A stretch of 34,477 nucleotides of DNA from a virus. Every line of letters begins with the position of its first letter. Position 1 is the first letter of the stretch. The notes beneath the pieces are model-generated. The model searched no databases. It was not told where the DNA came from and saw only the letters and a program-made list of their open reading frames with translations. Of the stretch, positions 1,579 through 17,623 are shown in pieces. A program made the translations under genes and the position numbers. The stretch lies in IMG/VR virus record IMGVR_UViG_3300037493_000564, positions 1 to 34,477 of that record; one strand, written 5' to 3'.

Positions 1579-4500
1579 ATGGCAACGCAAAAAACCCCCA
1601 CCAGCTACAAAGACCCGTTTTGGTCCGACCTGGCCGCTGGCACCGAGCAAAAGCTCGGACTTCCGCAGGGCTTGCTGGTCTCGGTGCTCACACAAGGCGA
1701 GCGCAGCAATGCCGACCAGGTGTCTGAGGCAGGCGCAAAAACCCCGTTTCAGATCATCCCAGCCACCCGCCAGGCGGTGCTCAAGAAGTACGGCGTGGAC
1801 GCCTATCTCAGCCCAGAGAACTCGGCCGAGGCCGCTGGCCTGCTGCTCAAGGAGTCGCTGGACCGCAATAAGGGCGACATCAAGCTGGCGGCTGCCGAGT
1901 ACCACGGCGGCACCAACCCGGCCAACTGGGGACCACGCACCAGGGCATACATCGACCGCGTCTCGCAAGGCGTGCGCGACCTCAGCCCACAGCGTGCCCC
2001 TGTGCAGGCGCCAACCATTGCGGAGGGCGGCACGACCAGCACGTTTCAGCGTGCTCTGGGTGCCAGCAGCATGGCTGCTGTACCGCCGGATGCGATTGCG
2101 AGGGTCTTCCAAGCCTACAGTTCCGGACAAATGACGCCCCAAGAGTCGGCAGAGTTTGAGGCCGACGTTCGCGGCGGAACCCTTATGCTGCCCCGCGGCG
2201 CGGCCTTGCGTGGCGAGCAGCCCCAAGGTGCCAAGACAACCACGCCAGAGCTGCCTGCGGCTGTGCTGGAGGCCTATAGCACCGGACGCATGACACGCGA
2301 CGAAATGATGGAGCTGGAGCGCGACGTCTCCAACGGCATGGCCAAGGTGCCCACCGGCTTTGCGATTCAAAAGACCGAGCCGATGGGCATTGTGGGCGGC
2401 ATCCGTGAGGCTATCACTGGCACCGAGCGCGCCACGCCAACCACCCAAGCACTGCCGGACTATGCGGCCATGCCCGAGCTGAACACCTTCAGCATGGCCA
2501 GCTTCAAGTCTGCCCTGGGCACGATGATCAGCAGCCCTGAAGAGACGATCCAGATCATCAAGTCCAACTATCCCGGAGTGCAAGTCACCCAGGACGAGAA
2601 GGGCAACTACGTGATGCAGTCGTCTATCGATGGACAGTTCTACTCGATCAAGCCTGGCTTCCAAGTCAGCGACATTCCACGCGCTGCTGGCGCTGTGGCT
2701 GCCTTCACGCCTGCCGGCCGTGCTGTCACCATCCCCGGCGCAATTGCTGCTGGCGCTGGCACCCAGGCGGTGATCGAGGCAACCCAAGCAGGCACTGGCG
2801 GCAGATTCAACACTGGCGAGGTGGCGCTGGCCGGAGCGCTTGGCGGCGCTGGTCAGGTGATCACCCGCATCCCGCAGGCCGTGCGCGACATTCGCGCTGG
2901 CCGAGTGCCACCGACTGCCCCACCGGCAGCGCCAGCAGGAGTGCCTGGTGCGGGCCCCGTGGCCCCTGTGGCACCTGCCGCACCCGTGGCACCTGTCACG
3001 CCTACCGCACCCGCTGGTGCGCCTATGGGCACGGCAATGGCCCCAGCGGTTCCTCCTGCGGCCCCGGCAGCCCCCGCAGTGGCCATGACAGCTGAGGAAC
3101 TGACAGCCACCACCCGCAGGGCGGCAGAGGGTGGCTTTGGCGCAGGCCGAGCCACCGAGATTCTGGCCACACAGGCAGCGCCTGACCCCAAGGTGCTGGA
3201 GGCTGCGCGTCGGCTCAAAATCGAGGGCTACCTGCAGCCGGATCACCTGACTTCAAACCAAGCCTACCGCGAGCTGGCGCAGGCCGTGAAGTCAATCCCC
3301 GGCAGCCAGGCGCGCGCGGCAGAGATCGCAGGCTTGGAGCAGGTCGGCAAGCAGGCCGACGACTTGATCACCCAGATCGGCGGCATGACGGATCTGAGCC
3401 GCATGAACCAAGCGGTGCGCACGCAGCTCGACCAGACCGTGACAAACCTGTCAAATCAGGCAGACGACGCCTACAAGGCGCTGCGCACAGCAATCCCTGC
3501 GCAAACCCGTGGCCCTGCTGACAACGTGATCAACTTCGTGCAGCAGCGTGCTGACGACTTGGATGGCGCACAGAACCTGTCCGGTTTGGAAAAGTCAGTC
3601 CGGCGCAAGCTGACACCCAAAGAGATCAAGGACGATGCTGGCAATGTAATCGGCATGCGCAATCCGACCTATGCCTTAATCGACGATGTGCGGCGCGACA
3701 TTGGCGCGGCAGCGCGCCAGCAAGGACCATTTGCAGATGCAGACACCGGTCTCGCCAAGCGCCTGTATGCCCTGATCGATGACGACCAGTTCAATCTGGC
3801 CGAAACCGTCGGCCGTGGCGAGCAGTACCGCCTGGCCAAAAGCCTGGTGCAAATGCGCAAGGGCTTTGAGGATGACATGGTGTCGCTGTTCGGCAAGCAG
3901 CTCGATCAAAGCCTGGTCACCAAGCTGTCAACGGCCACCACCTCGCTGTCCAAAGGCGACGGCGAGAAGCTGGTCAACATCCTGACCGCCATCCCCAAGG
4001 ACATGCGCCAGATGGTGGCAGCCTCGGCCCTGAACACAGCCTTCGGCAAGGCCACCCAAAACGGCACGCTGAACTTCAACACCTATGCCAACTGGTACAA
4101 AGGCCTGCTGGAGAACAAGCAAGCCTACGCTGCGCTGATGAACAACCTGCCGCAGCCAGCCAGGAAGTCGCTGTCGGATCTGTACCGGGTTGCTGACAAC
4201 GTGCGCAAGGCCAGCCGCGAGCGCATCACCACAGGCCGCATCCAGGCCTTCCAGCAGGAGTTGCAAGGCGCAGACTCGCTGCTGGGCAGCGTCTACATGG
4301 TGGCCAAGCGTGCAGCCATTGGACTGCCCATCGAAGCCGCCACGACTGCCGTCGGCCTGCCAGGCGCTGGCATTGCGTCCGGCCTGACAGCAGCTCTGAG
4401 CAAGGGCGTCAAGCCGCAGGTGATCAAGGCAGCCGACGAGCTGATTGCCTCGCCTGACTTTCAGCGCCTGGCCATCGAAGGCGCAAACAAAACACCAAGC

Positions 4501-4650
4501 CAAGCTACAGTAAGAGCTGTGGCACGATCAGCCGCATTTCAGCGCTTCGCTGAGGCTGCCAAAATGCCACGCGAGATGAGCTGGCGCGAAAGGTGGCTTG
4601 TGCAATCCATGCAAACTGGCAGACAATTTACACAGGAGAATGAAAAATGA
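1579..4650 (+). CDS. Large ejection protein with lytic transglycosylase domain (P22 gp16 / T7 gp16-like role)
   Basis: 1023 residues. The ATG at 1579 follows the upstream stop (1575-1577) by one base with no good Shine-Dalgarno, suggesting translational coupling. Residues about 10-130 form an SLT-type lytic transglycosylase domain: a Gly-Glu-Arg with the likely catalytic Glu, then TPFQIIPATR and AAEYHGG motifs. Two related segments of about 38 residues follow (nt 2085-2205 and 2257-2370, each with AYSxGxMTxxExxExExDV). After them come a hydrophobic Gly/Ala-rich stretch, an Ala/Pro linker (nt 2917-3081) and a long helical C-terminal half. A virion protein that locally cuts peptidoglycan and then forms part of the trans-envelope tube fits well. 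The gene overlaps the tailspike start by ATGA. Confidence 0.85.
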   Translation: MATQKTPTSYKDPFWSDLAAGTEQKLGLPQGLLVSVLTQGERSNADQVSEAGAKTPFQIIPATRQAVLKKYGVDAYLSPENSAEAAGLLLKESLDRNKGDIKLAAAEYHGGTNPANWGPRTRAYIDRVSQGVRDLSPQRAPVQAPTIAEGGTTSTFQRALGASSMAAVPPDAIARVFQAYSSGQMTPQESAEFEADVRGGTLMLPRGAALRGEQPQGAKTTTPELPAAVLEAYSTGRMTRDEMMELERDVSNGMAKVPTGFAIQKTEPMGIVGGIREAITGTERATPTTQALPDYAAMPELNTFSMASFKSALGTMISSPEETIQIIKSNYPGVQVTQDEKGNYVMQSSIDGQFYSIKPGFQVSDIPRAAGAVAAFTPAGRAVTIPGAIAAGAGTQAVIEATQAGTGGRFNTGEVALAGALGGAGQVITRIPQAVRDIRAGRVPPTAPPAAPAGVPGAGPVAPVAPAAPVAPVTPTAPAGAPMGTAMAPAVPPAAPAAPAVAMTAEELTATTRRAAEGGFGAGRATEILATQAAPDPKVLEAARRLKIEGYLQPDHLTSNQAYRELAQAVKSIPGSQARAAEIAGLEQVGKQADDLITQIGGMTDLSRMNQAVRTQLDQTVTNLSNQADDAYKALRTAIPAQTRGPADNVINFVQQRADDLDGAQNLSGLEKSVRRKLTPKEIKDDAGNVIGMRNPTYALIDDVRRDIGAAARQQGPFADADTGLAKRLYALIDDDQFNLAETVGRGEQYRLAKSLVQMRKGFEDDMVSLFGKQLDQSLVTKLSTATTSLSKGDGEKLVNILTAIPKDMRQMVAASALNTAFGKATQNGTLNFNTYANWYKGLLENKQAYAALMNNLPQPARKSLSDLYRVADNVRKASRERITTGRIQAFQQELQGADSLLGSVYMVAKRAAIGLPIEAATTAVGLPGAGIASGLTAALSKGVKPQVIKAADELIASPDFQRLAIEGANKTPSQATVRAVARSAAFQRFAEAAKMPREMSWRERWLVQSMQTGRQFTQENEK

Positions 4651-6233
4651 CCGCACTATCAATCCAACCCACATTTCCAATCTTCACGGATATTGATGGG
4701 CAGCCCCTTGAGGACGGCTACATCTTTATTGGTGTTGCAAATCTTGCACCAATAGGCAATCCCATCTCGGTCTACTGGGATGCGGCGCTGACAATCGCTG
4801 CGGCGCAGCCGATCCGCACTCGCGGCGGCTACCCGATAAACAGCGGCACGCCGGCTCGGCTGTACGTGAACAGCGACTACAGCATCCTGGTGCAGAACCG
4901 CAACGGCAGCGTGGTGTATTCGGCGCCTGCGGCGACGGAGCGGCTGTCTGATGTGATTATCGGCGGCATTGACTCCACCGACGTCTCATTCCTCCAATCC
5001 GGCTCCGGCGCAGTCACTCGCACGGTGCAGGCCAAGCTGCGTGAGTCTGTAAGCGTCAAGGACTTTGGTGCAACAGGGGATGGCGTAACAGATGACACAG
5101 CGGCCATTGTTCTTGCGTTAGCGGCATCCAAGAGTGTTTATTTCCCCGCCGGAACATATCTTTGCAGCTCCATCGTATTCAATGTTTCTGGTAAATCTGG
5201 TCGAAATATTCAAGGCGCATCCACTACTGAAACTATTTTCAAGGCAACCGTATCAGCCACAAATTTCTTTCAAATCACTGGAAACTACAACCAGTTCAAC
5301 ACGTTTGAGAATTTCAGCATTGATATGTCCTTGATGACAAATGCCGGAACATCACGAGGGTTGTATCTCAAGCAGACTTTTGGCAACAGTTTCCGAAACG
5401 TCAATGTAATAAATAGTGGCAATTTGATGCGCACGCTTTATTGCGATGTTGGAACCTACACTACAGTATTTGACAATTGCGATTTTGGAAGCACTACCGG
5501 AATTATTCAATTACAGGGTATATCATTGTCTGACGCTGTTACTACGGTAACACTTATTGGGTGTTCTTTTGGGCAATGTATTGCCGATCAAGTTGTGGCT
5601 GCCACATTTTTGCAGCCCGTTGTTCAAGGAGCTCTTAACAAGTTTGTCTTGTCTAATGTAAGTGGTTTGTCAATCGTTGGAGGTGACATTGAAGGAACCG
5701 GAACTTATCTTGTAATAGGTTCTGCGGTGGGTCATCTGTGCAGTTCTAACAATGAGCTTTCAGGATTTTCAGGCACCTATTCAACAGGCACTTTTGTCGA
5801 TGGCTACCTTATGGATATTTACGGAAGTATCTCGTTTAGTTTTAAGCCAAACAATGGGTCTGTTCACAAAGGTGTAATTACCGAACAAAGCAGCGCGGCA
5901 GCTCTATTACGCAAGATACTTCAAAACACGAATGCAATAGCGCAGCAAGTTGATATTCAGTTTGAAAATATTGTTGGTAGTTTGTACGCTGGCTTGAAGG
6001 CAGATGGTTCAACCGTCATCAATGGAATTGGATCTAAACCTATTATATTACAGCAATCTGGTGTTGATCGTTTTGGTATTGACACAGCAAGCCGATTAAT
6101 AATTGGCACTCTTACTCAGATAACCGTTGGAACCGCTGGTACTGCATCTGCATTGCCAGCGCTTCCAAGTGGCTTTGCCCGTATCGTGATTGGTGGCACT
6201 GATTACGTTATCCCTTATTACAAACAAATATGA
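4647..6233 (+). CDS. Tailspike / receptor-binding protein with P22-like head-binding domain and beta-helix
   Basis: 528 residues. AGGAGA precedes the ATG, which overlaps the previous stop (ATGA). Residues 1 to about 110 resemble the P22 tailspike head-binding domain (the IFTDIDGQPLEDGYIFIG and RTRGGYPIN segments). Residues about 136-155 carry the SVKDFGATGDGVTDD motif that opens pectate-lyase-type beta-helices. The distal part (nt about 5130-6200) is Ser/Thr/Asn/Gly-rich and visibly richer in AT than its neighbours, as expected for an exchangeable receptor-binding module. It probably trimerises, docks on the tail hub and binds or degrades a surface polysaccharide. Catalytic residues cannot be assigned. 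It is shorter than the P22 protein (about 667 residues). Confidence 0.85.
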   Translation: MTALSIQPTFPIFTDIDGQPLEDGYIFIGVANLAPIGNPISVYWDAALTIAAAQPIRTRGGYPINSGTPARLYVNSDYSILVQNRNGSVVYSAPAATERLSDVIIGGIDSTDVSFLQSGSGAVTRTVQAKLRESVSVKDFGATGDGVTDDTAAIVLALAASKSVYFPAGTYLCSSIVFNVSGKSGRNIQGASTTETIFKATVSATNFFQITGNYNQFNTFENFSIDMSLMTNAGTSRGLYLKQTFGNSFRNVNVINSGNLMRTLYCDVGTYTTVFDNCDFGSTTGIIQLQGISLSDAVTTVTLIGCSFGQCIADQVVAATFLQPVVQGALNKFVLSNVSGLSIVGGDIEGTGTYLVIGSAVGHLCSSNNELSGFSGTYSTGTFVDGYLMDIYGSISFSFKPNNGSVHKGVITEQSSAAALLRKILQNTNAIAQQVDIQFENIVGSLYAGLKADGSTVINGIGSKPIILQQSGVDRFGIDTASRLIIGTLTQITVGTAGTASALPALPSGFARIVIGGTDYVIPYYKQI

Positions 6234-9765: not shown

Positions 9766-10445
9766 TTTGAATCCTTCACTTTGTAATCTTTAAAAATGAC
9801 GCCTTTACTGGCGTCGCCTACTTTGCAGGACTTTACCCACACTGGCCTGCCCGATGGATGCTTTCGCCAGTGTCCTCGGCGATCGTGCTGGCGTGGGCTT
9901 GCGTGATGGCCTCCAAGCGCAGCGCCTTTGGATTCTGCTGGCTGCAAGATAACCGTATGCCAGTCAAACATTGACGGAAATTTGCCTTTGGCTTTTCGCT
10001 TGTCATTGATGAGGCTACGCTTTGACCTTGGCTGGTGAGCCTCTACTGCCTTCTGACCGAGAAGGTCGAGGAAATGCTTGATGGTGCAAAGGACGGAGTA
10101 GCATTGCTCGCGCTGTGGCGGTGCGTCACCTTCGGTTGCTGGCAGCAAGCGCAAGCCTTCTGGGGTGTCCATGTAGGCAAAGGCGTTGACCATTCTGTAA
10201 GAGGTTGGAGACAAAACAAAACCAGCCGCTGCGACCGACCCGTTGCTACCAATCAAGGTCAGCATGCATTTGTCACCATCCGAGTCGATGCAGCAGACAA
10301 TCACTTTGTGAAAAGGGATGTGCGTCAATACTTCGCCATCAACCAAAAACCGCACTTCTTCAGTCGGCAGCTTGCCAAGGTCGAACCACATGAAGGTTTC
10401 TGCCTCCGGTGTATAGCCGACCATTTCGCGTATGAGAGGCGTCAT
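9762..10445 (-). CDS. Conserved hypothetical early protein with basic C-terminus
   Basis: 227 residues, with AAGGAG six bases before the ATG and the start overlapping the helicase stop. The N-terminal 150 residues look like a mixed alpha/beta domain. The C-terminus (from about 178) is rich in His, Arg and Lys (RQHDRRGHWRKHPSGRPVWV) and ends with GVIFKDYKV, a conserved tail pattern in phage proteins next to DEAD-box helicases. The basic tail suggests nucleic-acid binding. Function unknown. Confidence 0.6.
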   Translation of the reverse strand: MTPLIREMVGYTPEAETFMWFDLGKLPTEEVRFLVDGEVLTHIPFHKVIVCCIDSDGDKCMLTLIGSNGSVAAAGFVLSPTSYRMVNAFAYMDTPEGLRLLPATEGDAPPQREQCYSVLCTIKHFLDLLGQKAVEAHQPRSKRSLINDKRKAKGKFPSMFDWHTVILQPAESKGAALGGHHASPRQHDRRGHWRKHPSGRPVWVKSCKVGDASKGVIFKDYKVKDSK

Positions 10446-12859
10446 GCCCAGCTCCTTTTCATCACTCTGAAAAACTTGCCATCGCGCTTGAACTCAATGC
10501 TGGCCGGTGGCTGCGTTTGATTCATGTTGGCCACCATCTCCTCCAGCGACTGCACGTTCAGGCCACCAGGCACGATCTGGCTGCGCTCGGCCATGTTGGC
10601 CAGCTTTTGCATGGCCATCTGCCCCGCATACCCTTCGTGCAAGATCGGCAGGTACTCGGTGATGGCCGGATCGCTCAGGCCACCGTAGTAGGTCACGGCG
10701 ATCATCTCCTTGCCACTGGCCTTGCTGACATGCTTGCGCCAGGACCAGGCTGTCACGTCCAGGTCGCTTCCCTCTAGCCCCATGATGTCGTCGTTGCGCA
10801 GCTCCAGCTTCTTGCGCTCCGGCTCGGGGAATGGATGACCGCAGGCAGGGCAGGCAGACACCGAGATGGCGCACAGCTCCCCGCAGTTGTCGCAGACCTT
10901 GACCGGTGCCTCACCGTTGCCATCGCCTCCCTTCTTGGGCGGCTGCACAGCGGTGATCGGACCATGAGTGGCCACCACCCCGGCAAAGTCCAGCACCAGG
11001 CAGTGATCGATGTGCGACTTCACCCGCATGCCCCGGCCTGCCATCTGCACGTACAGGCTCGCGCTCATGGTGGGGCGCAGCATGGCGATCAGATCGATGT
11101 CCGGGTAATCGAAGCCGGTGGTCAGCACGTTGGCGTTGGTGAGGGCTTGCAGCCGGCCGGCCTTGAAGTCGGCCAGCATGCGCTCGCGCTCCTTCTTTGG
11201 CGTCTCGCCCGTCACGCACTCAGCAGCCACCCCATGCTGGCGCAGGACAGCGGCGATGTGCTCAGCGTGCTTGACACCTGTGCAAAACACCAGCCACGCC
11301 TTGCGCTCGCCTGCCAGCTCGACGATCTCGCGCACCACGCGCTCGTTGTTGTCCTTGGTATCCACAACGGCCTGCAGCTCGGCCTCAATGAACTCCCCGC
11401 CACGCTTGTGCACGCCTGTGGTGTCCAGCTTGGCCTTGGTGACCTTGCTGCGCAGCGTGGCCAGATACTTCTTGAAGATCAGCTCCTCGATGGTCACCGG
11501 CTCGATTAAGGCATCGAACAGCGCAGGCTTGTCGGTGATCAGTCCATGCCCCAGGCGGTAGGGCGTTGCCGTCAGGCCGATCACGCGCAGGTTCTGGTTA
11601 ATGACCCGCAGGTCAGTAAGCAATGTCCGGTAGCCGCCCTCGTCCTTATGGGCCACAAGATGGCAATTATGTGCAGCTATTCCATTAGCGAAGTAAGAAG
11701 GATGTCCACTGACTTGAAGGTTGAATACAAGTACAGGGCTTTCTCGTTTGATACGCGATACACGCGCCACCCGAGGCCCGCAAGATATTGGTCTTTCTTC
11801 CTGTCCTGCATTTTCCTCTCGTCGCTGCCATGACTCCCCCCATCCAATTCGATGCAAATCATCTTTTCCGGATAACAAATGTCCACCTTGTAAGCATTCG
11901 GATATGTCCCGTTCAAATGCCCCGCTTTGGTCTTGATTGCATATTCCGCTATCCATCCTTCCCCCAACGCATGAAGCAGTGCTAACTGTGGCAAAGGCAG
12001 CAATTGCCCGTTTCCTCCACGCTGAATAGGTTGATGCCTGATTCTTTTTAGAGTTTCCCGCATTCGTTTGCGTGCTTCTGCATTCAGAACCGTCGGGTGT
12101 GATTTCTTTGCACACTTCACGGAGCAATAATTCTGCTTTTCCCAAAATGGTTCCGACATTGCTGAAATTACTTTTCCGCTGTCGTCCTTTTTGATCCAAG
12201 GTCGGAACTCTGCTCCACAAGCAGGACATATCTTCAATGCGGAAAAGAGGCGCTCCGATCTCCAATTTTTCTGCTTTTTGCCATCCATCGTCGGTAAAGA
12301 TTGGGTGATTTCCGGTGCATTCAAATTTGGTTCCATCATCAAGCTCCACAAGTAAGGTTTCGGCGGCTTGTCGGCAACTAACAGCTTCAACAACACCAAC
12401 TCCGCGTGTATTAAATACTAAGTCACCGCACCTCACTTTGTCAATGTCTATTTGTCCTTTTGGTGTTAAAATCTTCGTTCCAGCAACAAAGCATTCGTCA
12501 ATAATAACTAGGTCAACATGGCCGATCTGCTTTGCTTTGGTTCGCACCGATTGAATGCCTGCAAAGGTGATGGGCTCGCCTAAGTCCTTGCGGTTTAGAC
12601 CGGCAGAGTAAATGCCAAGCGGGCAGTTAGGCCAGTGCTGGCGCATCTTTTCAGCATTCTGCGCAATAAGCTCCTTCACATGGGTGAGCATGAGAATGCG
12701 AGTCTCAGGCCACGATTGCAGCGCATCCTTGCATAGTGCCGCAATGATGTGAGACTTGCCTGAGCCCGTGGGCAGCACCAAGCAAGGGTTACCTGTGTTG
12801 CCAGCTTCAAACCAAGCGTAAAGCTGGTCGATGGTGCGGGTTTGGTAGTCTCTCAGCAT
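10442..12859 (-). CDS. DECH-box superfamily 2 helicase interrupted by an intein
   Basis: 805 residues as translated, about 529 after removal of a 276-residue intein. The ATG at 12859 has GGAG nine bases upstream. A GTG at 12874 would add five residues. Walker A is LPTGSGKS (Lys35), motif II is DE-[intein]-CH, motif III is in GLTATPYR, and motif VI is QMAGRGMR. A zinc ribbon (VCDNCGELC...CPACGHPF) follows the helicase core. This is the phage SSL2/RadD-like ATP-dependent helicase type, probably acting in replication or recombination. The enzyme cannot hydrolyse ATP until the intein splices, because motif II is split. Upstream and downstream genes overlap its ends. Confidence 0.9.
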   Translation of the reverse strand: MLRDYQTRTIDQLYAWFEAGNTGNPCLVLPTGSGKSHIIAALCKDALQSWPETRILMLTHVKELIAQNAEKMRQHWPNCPLGIYSAGLNRKDLGEPITFAGIQSVRTKAKQIGHVDLVIIDECFVAGTKILTPKGQIDIDKVRCGDLVFNTRGVGVVEAVSCRQAAETLLVELDDGTKFECTGNHPIFTDDGWQKAEKLEIGAPLFRIEDMSCLWSRVPTLDQKGRQRKSNFSNVGTILGKAELLLREVCKEITPDGSECRSTQTNAGNSKKNQASTYSAWRKRAIAAFATVSTASCVGGRMDSGICNQDQSGAFERDISECLQGGHLLSGKDDLHRIGWGESWQRREENAGQEERPISCGPRVARVSRIKRESPVLVFNLQVSGHPSYFANGIAAHNCHLVAHKDEGGYRTLLTDLRVINQNLRVIGLTATPYRLGHGLITDKPALFDALIEPVTIEELIFKKYLATLRSKVTKAKLDTTGVHKRGGEFIEAELQAVVDTKDNNERVVREIVELAGERKAWLVFCTGVKHAEHIAAVLRQHGVAAECVTGETPKKERERMLADFKAGRLQALTNANVLTTGFDYPDIDLIAMLRPTMSASLYVQMAGRGMRVKSHIDHCLVLDFAGVVATHGPITAVQPPKKGGDGNGEAPVKVCDNCGELCAISVSACPACGHPFPEPERKKLELRNDDIMGLEGSDLDVTAWSWRKHVSKASGKEMIAVTYYGGLSDPAITEYLPILHEGYAGQMAMQKLANMAERSQIVPGGLNVQSLEEMVANMNQTQPPASIEFKRDGKFFRVMKRSWA
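11666..12493 (-). mobile_element. Intein inserted in helicase motif II
   Basis: 276 residues between DE and CH of the helicase. Block A is CFVAGTKILT with Cys1. Block B is FECTGNHPIF with the TxxH pattern. Block F/G is VFNLQVSGHPSYFANGIAAHN ending in His-Asn, and the +1 extein residue is Cys, so all class 1 splicing residues are present. The middle (intein residues about 85-250) resembles no in-frame homing endonuclease (no LAGLIDADG or HNH). It is the alternate-frame image of an endonuclease gene. The element is richer in AT than the helicase around it, consistent with acquisition. Confidence 0.93.
11677..12336 (-). CDS. EDxHD/Vsr-like homing endonuclease encoded out of frame inside the intein
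   Basis: About 219 residues, read one base downstream of the helicase register. The best start is the ATG at 12336, with GGAG seven bases upstream. The frame stays open to 12399, and the ATG at 12288 is an alternative. It has a zinc-finger-like set (CPAC at about 37-40, CSVKC at 71-75) and a basic helical stretch with RGGNGQLLPLPQ. The nuclease domain contains Glu131, Asp152 (YKVDI), His169 (DGGSH) and Asp178/182 (QDRKKD). This fits the EDxHD family related to Vsr and DUF559. The stop is 11 bases from the end of the intein, so the gene overlaps splicing blocks B, F and G. Confidence 0.85.
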   Translation of the reverse strand: MEPNLNAPEITQSLPTMDGKKQKNWRSERLFSALKICPACGAEFRPWIKKDDSGKVISAMSEPFWEKQNYCSVKCAKKSHPTVLNAEARKRMRETLKRIRHQPIQRGGNGQLLPLPQLALLHALGEGWIAEYAIKTKAGHLNGTYPNAYKVDICYPEKMICIELDGGSHGSDERKMQDRKKDQYLAGLGWRVYRVSNEKALYLYSTFKSVDILLTSLME

Positions 12860-13422
12860 AAATTGCCACTCCACTGTTTAGCCATTGCATCAGCAATTCC
12901 TTGATAGGTAGTGCTGCGCAGTTTCCAACGGTCTGCGCTTGGCGGCATCTTATGAATACGGTCATCGCGGCCTGCAACAATGTTGGTTGGCGTTAGCAGC
13001 GGTAAACCTTTTAGCCACAGGCAGGTTGCTTTGGTTTCTCCGTGCCCGTATTGCCAAGGCTGAATTACTTGATCAGGCTTTCGCCATAAACTTGACATGA
13101 TGCACACCGGGTTTTCGGTTGCAGTTTTGGGAATGTGAGTTGAAGCGCGTTGCAAGCGCATGAAAAACGCAACGCTGGCGGCCTGCCTACCATCCAGCCA
13201 TTTTGCAGCAAAATGACGAGCGCCTGATGTTGCCAAATCCGTGCAAGGCGGATGAAAAATGGCAATGTCCCAAGGGTAGTCGATGACATCAAAAATGTTG
13301 CCTTGGTAATGCGGGCCAAGCGCATCGGTAGGAAGTAAATCGCAACTCATGGCGTCATGGCCGAGCGCTCGAAACGCATCGCGCACTGCACCGGAATATT
13401 CGCAGCCAATCAAAACTTTCAC
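12853..13422 (-). CDS. DNA cytosine methyltransferase-like protein
   Basis: 189 residues. A GTG start at 13422 is supported by GGGAGG eight bases upstream and by overlap with the previous stop (GTGA). The opening VKVLIGCEYSG resembles an AdoMet-binding loop, and IFHPPCTDLATSGARHF resembles the catalytic PPC motif of C5-cytosine methyltransferases. It is much shorter than canonical enzymes and lacks an obvious target-recognition domain. It may modify phage DNA against restriction or act in base hypermodification. The gene appears somewhat richer in AT than the rest of the operon. Confidence 0.7.
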   Translation of the reverse strand: MKVLIGCEYSGAVRDAFRALGHDAMSCDLLPTDALGPHYQGNIFDVIDYPWDIAIFHPPCTDLATSGARHFAAKWLDGRQAASVAFFMRLQRASTHIPKTATENPVCIMSSLWRKPDQVIQPWQYGHGETKATCLWLKGLPLLTPTNIVAGRDDRIHKMPPSADRWKLRSTTYQGIADAMAKQWSGNLC

Positions 13423-16596: not shown

Positions 16597-16776
16597 ATGA
16601 AGACGCAAGAAGCAATCAACTACTACGGCAGCCTTCGCAAGCTGGCCGAAGCCCTGGACGTTTGGCCGCAGGTGATCTATCAATGGGGCGACACTCCCCC
16701 GATGGGGCGACAGTACGAGCTTGAGGTTAAGACTGAGGGAGTGCTGAAGGCAGATCGGGAGCCAGTAAATGGCTGA
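16597..16776 (+). CDS. cro: Cro-like transcriptional regulator (P22 Cro family)
   Basis: 59 residues. AAGGTGG lies just upstream of the ATG. The sequence DAxxYYG-like opening (TQEAINYYGS), the helix-turn-helix LRKLAEALDVWPQVIYQWG and the RQYELEVKTEG ending match the small P22 Cro family. It would bind operators in the adjacent divergent promoter region and damp early transcription. No CI-type partner repressor is seen in the genome. The next gene starts inside its last codons. Confidence 0.8.
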   Translation: MKTQEAINYYGSLRKLAEALDVWPQVIYQWGDTPPMGRQYELEVKTEGVLKADREPVNG

Positions 16777-17623
16777 TCCATTCAAGATCGACAGCCAAAC
16801 ATGCATCAGCTTTAGTGGCGGCAGAACCAGTGCCTATATGCTGTGGCGGGTGCTCCAGTCAAACAGTGGATTGCCAGACGAGTGCATTGTGATGTTTGCC
16901 AACACCGGCAAGGAGGATGAGGCTACGCTGCAATTTGTGCGCGACTGTGGAGAGCATTGGGGCGTGCCGATCACATGGCTGGAGTGGCAGGACGCTGAAG
17001 AGCCACGCGACCGTGTGCGAGTAGTTGACATTGCTAGTGCGGCAAGAAATGGCGAGCCATTTGAGGCTTTGATCAGGAAGAAAAATTACCTGCCGAATCC
17101 AGTGACCAGGTTTTGCACAGTCGATCTGAAGATCAAGCCATTTGCCAACTATTGCAGGCACCACATAGGGTGGGATGACTGGGACAACATGCTCGGTATC
17201 CGAGCCGATGAGCCTAGGAGGGTGGCTAAGATCAGAGCAAACCCGTCAGACGGAATGAAGGGTATTCACCGACTTATGCCTCTTGCTGATGACAATGTGA
17301 CACGGCAGGATGTCGCACAGTTTTGGGCCAAACAATCATTTGATCTTGGATTACCAAACATCGGCGGCGTGACTTATCACGGCAACTGCGATCTATGTTT
17401 CCTCAAAGGCGCATCGCAGATTTTGTCGTTGATTGCAGAGAAGCCAGAGCGTGCAATTTGGTGGGCGAGCCAAGAAGGATCAATTACAAATCCTGGAATC
17501 ACGGGGGGGGGGTACTTCAGGAAAGACCGACCCAACTACTCTTCAATGCTTAAATTCAGCCAAGATCAACGCGACATGTTTGACCCTAACGAGGAAGCCA
17601 TTTCGTGCTTCTGTGGAGACTAA
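16769..17623 (+). CDS. PAPS-reductase family PP-loop enzyme
   Basis: 284 residues, overlapping cro by eight bases. The N-terminal SFSGGRTSAYML is the PP-loop nucleotide-binding signature of the PAPS reductase/ATP pyrophosphatase group. It is followed by MFANTGKEDEATLQFV and a conserved RFCTVDLKIKP. Cysteine pairs occur in GNCDLCFLK and in the terminal SCFCGD. Phage members are usually annotated PAPS reductase, but DndC-like sulfur transfer or nucleotide modification is equally possible. Its place between cro and the primase suggests an early DNA- or nucleotide-related job. A run of ten G residues near 17503-17512 lies in the reading frame. Confidence 0.78.
   Translation: MADPFKIDSQTCISFSGGRTSAYMLWRVLQSNSGLPDECIVMFANTGKEDEATLQFVRDCGEHWGVPITWLEWQDAEEPRDRVRVVDIASAARNGEPFEALIRKKNYLPNPVTRFCTVDLKIKPFANYCRHHIGWDDWDNMLGIRADEPRRVAKIRANPSDGMKGIHRLMPLADDNVTRQDVAQFWAKQSFDLGLPNIGGVTYHGNCDLCFLKGASQILSLIAEKPERAIWWASQEGSITNPGITGGGYFRKDRPNYSSMLKFSQDQRDMFDPNEEAISCFCGD

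Follow-up and report, generated by a model that had tools for sequence, protein, structure and literature searches.

Predicted EDxHD homing endonuclease genes nested out of frame within class 1 inteins of phage helicases and other proteins

A helicase intein and an endonuclease gene in overlapping frames

The DNA analyzed here, referred to as the window, is the whole stretch of 34,477 nucleotides at positions 1 to 34,477 of IMG/VR record IMGVR_UViG_3300037493_000564, and it encodes a scaffold protein, a portal, a large terminase, a transglycosylase-bearing internal protein, and a tail-spike-like protein. The tail-spike protein carries a pectate-lyase-like domain (4647-6233, plus strand), and its gene occupies the stretch where the GC content of the window is lowest (43.6% at 5001-6000); a phosphoadenosine phosphosulfate reductase-like auxiliary metabolic gene is present at 16769-17623 (plus strand). 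An SF2 helicase gene on the minus strand contains an intein, within which an endonuclease (EN) gene is read one base out of register, with the following layout.

10442-12874, minus strand: SF2 helicase open reading frame (ORF), open through 810 codons
12494-12874, minus strand: N-extein of the SF2 helicase (ResIII/DEAD), ending in VIIDE (ORF; Pfam ResIII, 1.4e-16)
11666-12493, minus strand: class 1 intein of 276 aa, with Cys1, Thr60-xx-His63, and His275-Asn276 (Pfam Hint/Intein_splicing; AlphaFold; Foldseek; conservation)
10442-11665, minus strand: C-extein of the helicase, beginning with Cys+1 (CHLVAH) (ORF; Helicase_C, 1.6e-17)
11677-12339, minus strand: EN gene in helicase frame +1, 220 aa from ATG (Pfam DUF559, 2e-7; conserved residues; Foldseek)
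11803-11850, minus strand: EDxHD catalytic segment of EN (E164, 11848-11850; D166, 11842-11844; H170, 11830-11832; D179, 11803-11805)
12344-12347, minus strand: Shine-Dalgarno (SD)-like GGAG inside intein codons, 4 nt upstream of ATG 12339 and 7 nt upstream of ATG 12336

An earlier reading made from the sequence alone had the helicase running continuously through a class 1 intein at 11666-12493, and these coordinates and the class 1 residues were verified. The intein is inserted in helicase motif II (VIIDE/CH, the slash marking the junction) and possesses Cys1, the block B motif TGNH, the terminal His-Asn, and Cys+1. Residues C1, T6, H63, H275, and N276 are invariant in 64 homologues; Cys1 is found in 118 of 119 loci, the sole exception being a truncated contig, and the +1 residue is Cys or Ser in all 116 loci scored. 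With input alignments free of rows from annotated phage records, AlphaFold modeled intein residues 1-90 and 241-276 with a pLDDT of about 97, a helix pair at residues 86-128, and residues 135-234 as disordered (pLDDT below 50). The top Foldseek matches of this model are inteins and intein-like domains, which supports a Hint fold. No group I or group II intron, and hence no ribozyme core, was matched in Rfam at E values up to 0.5.

The same early reading had placed, on the same strand and shifted by one base, an endonuclease combining a zinc finger with an EDxHD nuclease, its stop 11 nt before the intein end, and this was confirmed. The EN frame is open for 246 codons and closes at 11677-11679; it encodes a zinc finger (C38xxC41/C72xxxC76), an RGGNG motif, and an EDxHD nuclease (E164-x-D166-xxx-H170 ... 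D179). Among 78 homologues, D166, H170, and D179 are invariant and E164 is present in 90% or more. The structure model of EN is of moderate quality (pLDDT 81, pTM 0.52), and its top Foldseek match is the catalytic domain of I-Bth0305I (probability 1.00, TM of about 0.63 on the target, E = 7e-3); a profile match to 3r3p was also obtained (E = 0.013). A Vsr-like core with the E, D, H, and D catalytic residues thus assigns EN to the EDxHD family. The gene had been outlined as 11677-12336 with a frame open to 12399; the open frame holds, and ATG 12339 or 12336 is the preferred start, TTG 12399 being unlikely given that a stop separates the TTG from the ATG in several close relatives. A plasmid search with the endonuclease gave no match.

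Recurrence of the arrangement and selection in each frame

Protein searches of isolated phages returned Vibrio, Pseudomonas, and Corynebacterium phages, each matching within its helicase gene, and in every isolated phage examined, as well as in eight IMG/VR contigs, EN lies in frame f+1 relative to helicase frame f. Scanning viral and bacterial assemblies with profiles raised the number to at least 119 distinct loci, which form 78 clusters at 70% EN identity. Loci were classified with no filter on frame or span, and among the matches listed, every locus with an intein call has EN at exactly the +1 offset with the intein ORF spanning it; an in-frame, +2, or broken arrangement was found in 0 of these 119 EDxHD loci, none of which therefore has the canonical endonuclease fused in frame within the intein. 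These frequencies are not population estimates, as each scan contributed at most 80 loci and the inteins sampled are those resembling the queries; weak DUF559-type genome matches lacking an intein call (L112-L153) were excluded from the counts.

Given each EN sequence and the helicase's own codon usage, about 791 stops would be expected in the intein frame across the 78 clusters, and none was observed (log10 P of about -431), all 78 clusters being open; the third frame contains 1,080 stops versus 778 expected. The proposal that both frames are open beyond chance is thereby borne out, with one correction: the figure of about 11 chance stops per overlap in the window falls to about 7 once the real EN sequence and local codon usage are used. 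Because P(open) for the window alone is only 4e-4 under these same settings, the claim rests on the comparison and not on the single window.

Related inteins having been collected from assemblies as the sequence-only reading had proposed, synonymous sites were compared per frame in three segments of the overlap.

12233-12336, minus strand: 5' overlap, block B and following codons over the EN N terminus (intein-frame dN/dS, 0.43; rate ratio, 0.49)
11798-12232, minus strand: middle overlap (intein nt 262-696), effectively EN-only coding (EN position 3 substitutions; dN/dS)
11680-11797, minus strand: 3' dual-coding segment, intein blocks F/G over the EN C terminus (substitution counts; EN-synonymous rate)

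In six close relatives, compared as 15 pairs whose counts are not phylogenetically independent, 782 of 1,126 differences in the upstream extein and 149 of 241 in the non-overlapping N-part of the intein fall at helicase codon position 3, while in the middle overlap 246 of 343 fall at helicase position 1, which is EN position 3; only 41 substitutions were counted in the 117 nt of the 3' overlap. By site-class counting, dN/dS in the middle is about 1.0-1.3 (1.06-1.28) in the intein frame and 0.25-0.30 in the EN frame, and the 5' overlap gives the intein-frame value listed above. Changes silent in EN and altering the intein occur at a rate of 0.67 in the middle overlap, compared to 0.33 in the 5' overlap, 0.30 in the 3' overlap, and 0.09 in blocks F/G; relative to the middle, this EN-synonymous/intein-nonsynonymous rate is 0.45-fold at the 3' end, 0.49 at the 5' end, and 0.14 in blocks F/G (CI, 0-0.32). 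Dual constraint at the 3' end rests on this EN-synonymous-site test and not on the simple intein-frame NN/SN ratio, which is 0.83 (CI, 0.43-1.62).

Because of these per-region codon-position patterns, dN/dS values, and EN-silent rates, we read the middle overlap as coding for EN only, its intein reading drifting neutrally and merely kept open, and the 3' end, where blocks F/G face the EN C terminus, as constrained in both frames; the 5' end appears more weakly so. The disorder predicted at residues 135-234 agrees with this picture. The suggestion that dual coding is selected accordingly stands for the 3' end and, less strongly, the 5' end, and fails for the middle (nt 262-696), where only EN is under purifying selection.

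Several other explanations bear on these data. A single metagenomic contig would by itself permit a compensating pair of indels, from assembly or sequencing, that masks an ordinary in-frame intein endonuclease; since 119 distinct loci share exactly this +1 offset, among them the isolates CP-T1, MR14, phi673, and several Vibrio phages from different laboratories, the two-indel explanation has a negligible probability, and we regard assembly error as excluded as the source of the offset. The out-of-frame EN could also be a non-functional remnant that is open by happenstance, considering the modest P(open) of the window taken alone and an EN activity predicted from sequence. The EN-frame dN/dS of 0.25-0.30 in the middle overlap, the catalytic residues conserved in 78 homologues, the sporadic distribution, and the co-conversion-like flanks described below make this very improbable. 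Homologues with just one of the two frames open, which would have counted against the sequence-only reading, were not found among the loci collected: neither frame is broken in any homologue with an intein and an EDxHD EN. A further reading, in which the in-frame middle of the intein is a second functional domain and dual coding is selected throughout, could draw on the predicted helix pair at residues 86-128 and on a few conserved intein-frame positions (L123 and Q202). We consider it quite unlikely given the neutral intein-frame dN/dS of the middle and the low pLDDT at residues 135-234, and conservation at these few positions may simply follow from that of the EN codons.

Predicted expression and mobility of the nested endonuclease

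The best SD-plus-start candidate in each frame was scored in the same way for the 78 clusters. The EN frame has a mean of -5.05 kcal/mol, compared to -2.25 for frame +2 (P = 2e-9) and -3.26 for the helicase frame (P = 2e-5). In the Vibrio and Pseudomonas phages, GAGGT lies 5-8 nt before the EN ATG; weaker sites occur in two loci, L005 (GGAA) and L007 (GGAT). The EN frame often has a stop 0-21 nt before the EN start. The SD enrichment and the nearby upstream stop therefore favor internal initiation at the EN ATG over frameshifting as the probable route. Programmed +1 ribosomal frameshifting within the intein, yielding a fusion of N-extein, intein N-part, and EN, is formally possible, given a host frame that stays open to either side and an offset that is constant at +1. 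We judge it unlikely, as SD-like sites with an ATG are enriched at the EN start, the upstream stops leave little room for a shift in many loci, an HNH class with a +2 offset (see below) would require another shift, and the fusion product would waste precursor.

Regarding mobility, there are at least 80 intein-free helicase relatives (79-92% identical), each with an empty site. Between the window and its closest empty-site relatives, DNA identity is about 0.92-0.98 beyond roughly +180 to +300 nt and drops to 0.65-0.80 from about -360 to +120 nt. Such a dip around the insertion site is the pattern expected if flanks were co-converted, and it could in principle reflect ordinary recombination. Of two Corynebacterium phages, phi673 has the intein and phi674 lacks it (PMC6132909). 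Their flanks are 99.2% identical, with extra differences clustered in the first 120 nt past the insertion site, which reads DE/VH in phi674 (empty) and DE/CH in phi673 (intein). Because of this residue difference and the clustering after the site, the Cys+1 codon needed for splicing probably arrived together with the element. In the six relatives, position-3 divergence is 0.49 in the extein versus 0.19 in the intein N-part, and the two are uncorrelated. Homing is supported, at the level of sequence comparison, by the empty-site relatives, the identity dip, the phi673/phi674 pair, and the differing extein and intein divergence.

Altogether, we interpret the element, with a probability of roughly 0.85, as a mobile (homing) intein that carries its homing endonuclease gene nested in another frame and not as an in-frame fusion. 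In the homing-intein model, translation from the helicase start would yield a precursor from which the Hint domain, made up of intein residues 1 to about 95 together with 241-276, would splice itself out; the middle, at least 100 residues of EN DNA read in the wrong frame, would be a disordered loop needing only the absence of stops. Ribosomes initiating internally at the ATG after GGAG would produce a separate 25-kDa zinc-finger/EDxHD endonuclease, which would cut intein-free helicase alleles at the Walker B (DE/C) codons, and recombinational repair would then copy the entire cassette with flanking DNA, which could also bring the Cys+1 codon.

Range of hosts, other endonuclease classes, and known systems

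The EDxHD element is inserted after the Walker B/motif II Asp-Glu in almost all loci, and its hosts include SF2 helicases, Snf2-like proteins, a terminase-like protein, and, in bacterial assemblies, DnaX clamp loaders. DnaX-like clamp loader genes with the element at Walker B (DE/C...HN/CHML and similar) were seen in the bacterial assemblies L103, L110, and L115 and in the viral contig L187; the element thus extends beyond phage helicases. In 11 loci (L035, L037, L040, L045, L048, L050, L067, L090, L162, L164, and L170), the EN stop lies past the intein end, with the EN frame overlapping C-extein codons.

The intein scan also revealed inteins without EDxHD that carry an out-of-frame HNH_3 endonuclease. 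A dedicated HNH_3 scan found 69 spanning cases in +2, a further 2 in which the host frame is closed, 1 in +1, and 0 in frame. This +2 class, an HNH_3 plus zinc-finger endonuclease (L188, L190, L193, L197, L201, L206-L217, L220-L222, L224, L225, L228, and L231; L317-L396), amounts in the dedicated scan to at least 71 loci in 58 clusters, and its hosts, where identified, are mostly terminase large subunits. In L385 and L396, the host frame does not stay open through the HNH region; these may be decaying copies, indels, or misassembly. A candidate third kind, a different HNH in frame +1, occurs in inteins at the terminase Walker B site (TGEGGN/C...HN/CIIIDD) in L192, L202, L203, L204, and L205. 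In L218, at about 3500-4500, an HNH ORF is in frame with the C-terminal intein block and out of frame with the N-terminal block, which could be an ordinary intein with an in-frame HNH that has acquired an indel, or a more unusual arrangement. A DNA-level search of isolated phages with the HNH-type terminase intein gave no match; a protein search found relatives. Pseudomonas phage PAE1 was rejected as an annotated case of overlap, its HNH gene being free-standing between terL and portal.

From these classes it seems likely that out-of-frame nesting is a major, old, and repeatedly evolved phage intein architecture, in which at least two unrelated EN families (EDxHD in +1, inserted at Walker B in helicases, Snf2-like proteins, DnaX, and terminases, and HNH_3 in +2, mostly in terminases), perhaps three, made mini-inteins mobile by means of elongated endonucleases, unfoldable into the Hint loop, as independently initiated overlapping genes.

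The sequence-only reading named no described example of such an element. No out-of-frame endonuclease inside an intein was described in the literature searched, outside which lies a preprint by Gosselin et al. with non-canonical intein architecture in its title (bioRxiv 2025.01.02.630785). The closest published arrangement found is the ShiLan domain, which with the Pacc40 insertion represents an out-of-frame HNH in a phage methylase insert without a splicing domain (Arsenault, Gosselin and Gogarten 2025, PMC11855218). Like the window element, the ShiLan domain is an insert in a phage gene, open in the host frame, with a homing-type EN out of frame, and it spreads like a mobile element. However, the ShiLan EN is an HNH enzyme with a GTG start lacking a detectable SD and occurs in phage methylases, and its insert has neither intein splicing motifs or fold nor an intron and remains in the host protein, whereas the window has an EDxHD enzyme and a complete Hint domain.

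Canonical homing inteins, such as PI-SceI and the HNH_3 intein in the dCTP deaminase of cyanophage CL131 (PMC6293099), share the class 1 Hint domain, insertion in an active-site motif, and presumed homing, but their endonuclease is part of the spliced-out protein, whereas the EN of the window would be a separate product of the overlapping frame. With I-Bth0305I and other EDxHD homing endonucleases, the window EN has in common the catalytic core fold and the E-D-H-D residues; the known enzymes are described as intron-encoded or free-standing, unlike an EN nested in, and overlapping, the intein it would mobilize. EDxHD homing endonucleases are partners of split inteins and are known in association with fractured genes. 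Overlap between ribozyme and endonuclease ORF is also known from group I introns; these are likewise selfish, with a splicing function and an EN coded in overlap, but splicing in the window would occur at the protein level. The window element would work like a homing intein, with parts from known families and without the canonical in-frame EN.

Phage enzymes of the EDxHD and HNH types are elongated and built of several domains (PMC3943268). A separate frame is a plausible design because a Hint loop would not easily accommodate such proteins, and the overlapping frame may plausibly remove the limit that the loop sets on EN size. The arrangement would represent a third linkage of a splicing protein with a homing endonuclease, beside in-frame fusion and split or free-standing partners. 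It may also explain the many phage inteins that resemble mini-inteins without an endonuclease, and annotation of one frame per locus misses such elements. The phi673 intein was reported without its endonuclease (PMC6132909). The same-strand overlapping genes, of about 220 codons in dozens of independent lineages, offer a natural data set for dual-coding evolution, part of their length being neutral in one frame and another part under constraint in both, and they are a source of EDxHD and HNH endonucleases tied to conserved Walker B or terminase motifs. The nested out-of-frame EN looks like a widespread and overlooked build of these selfish elements.
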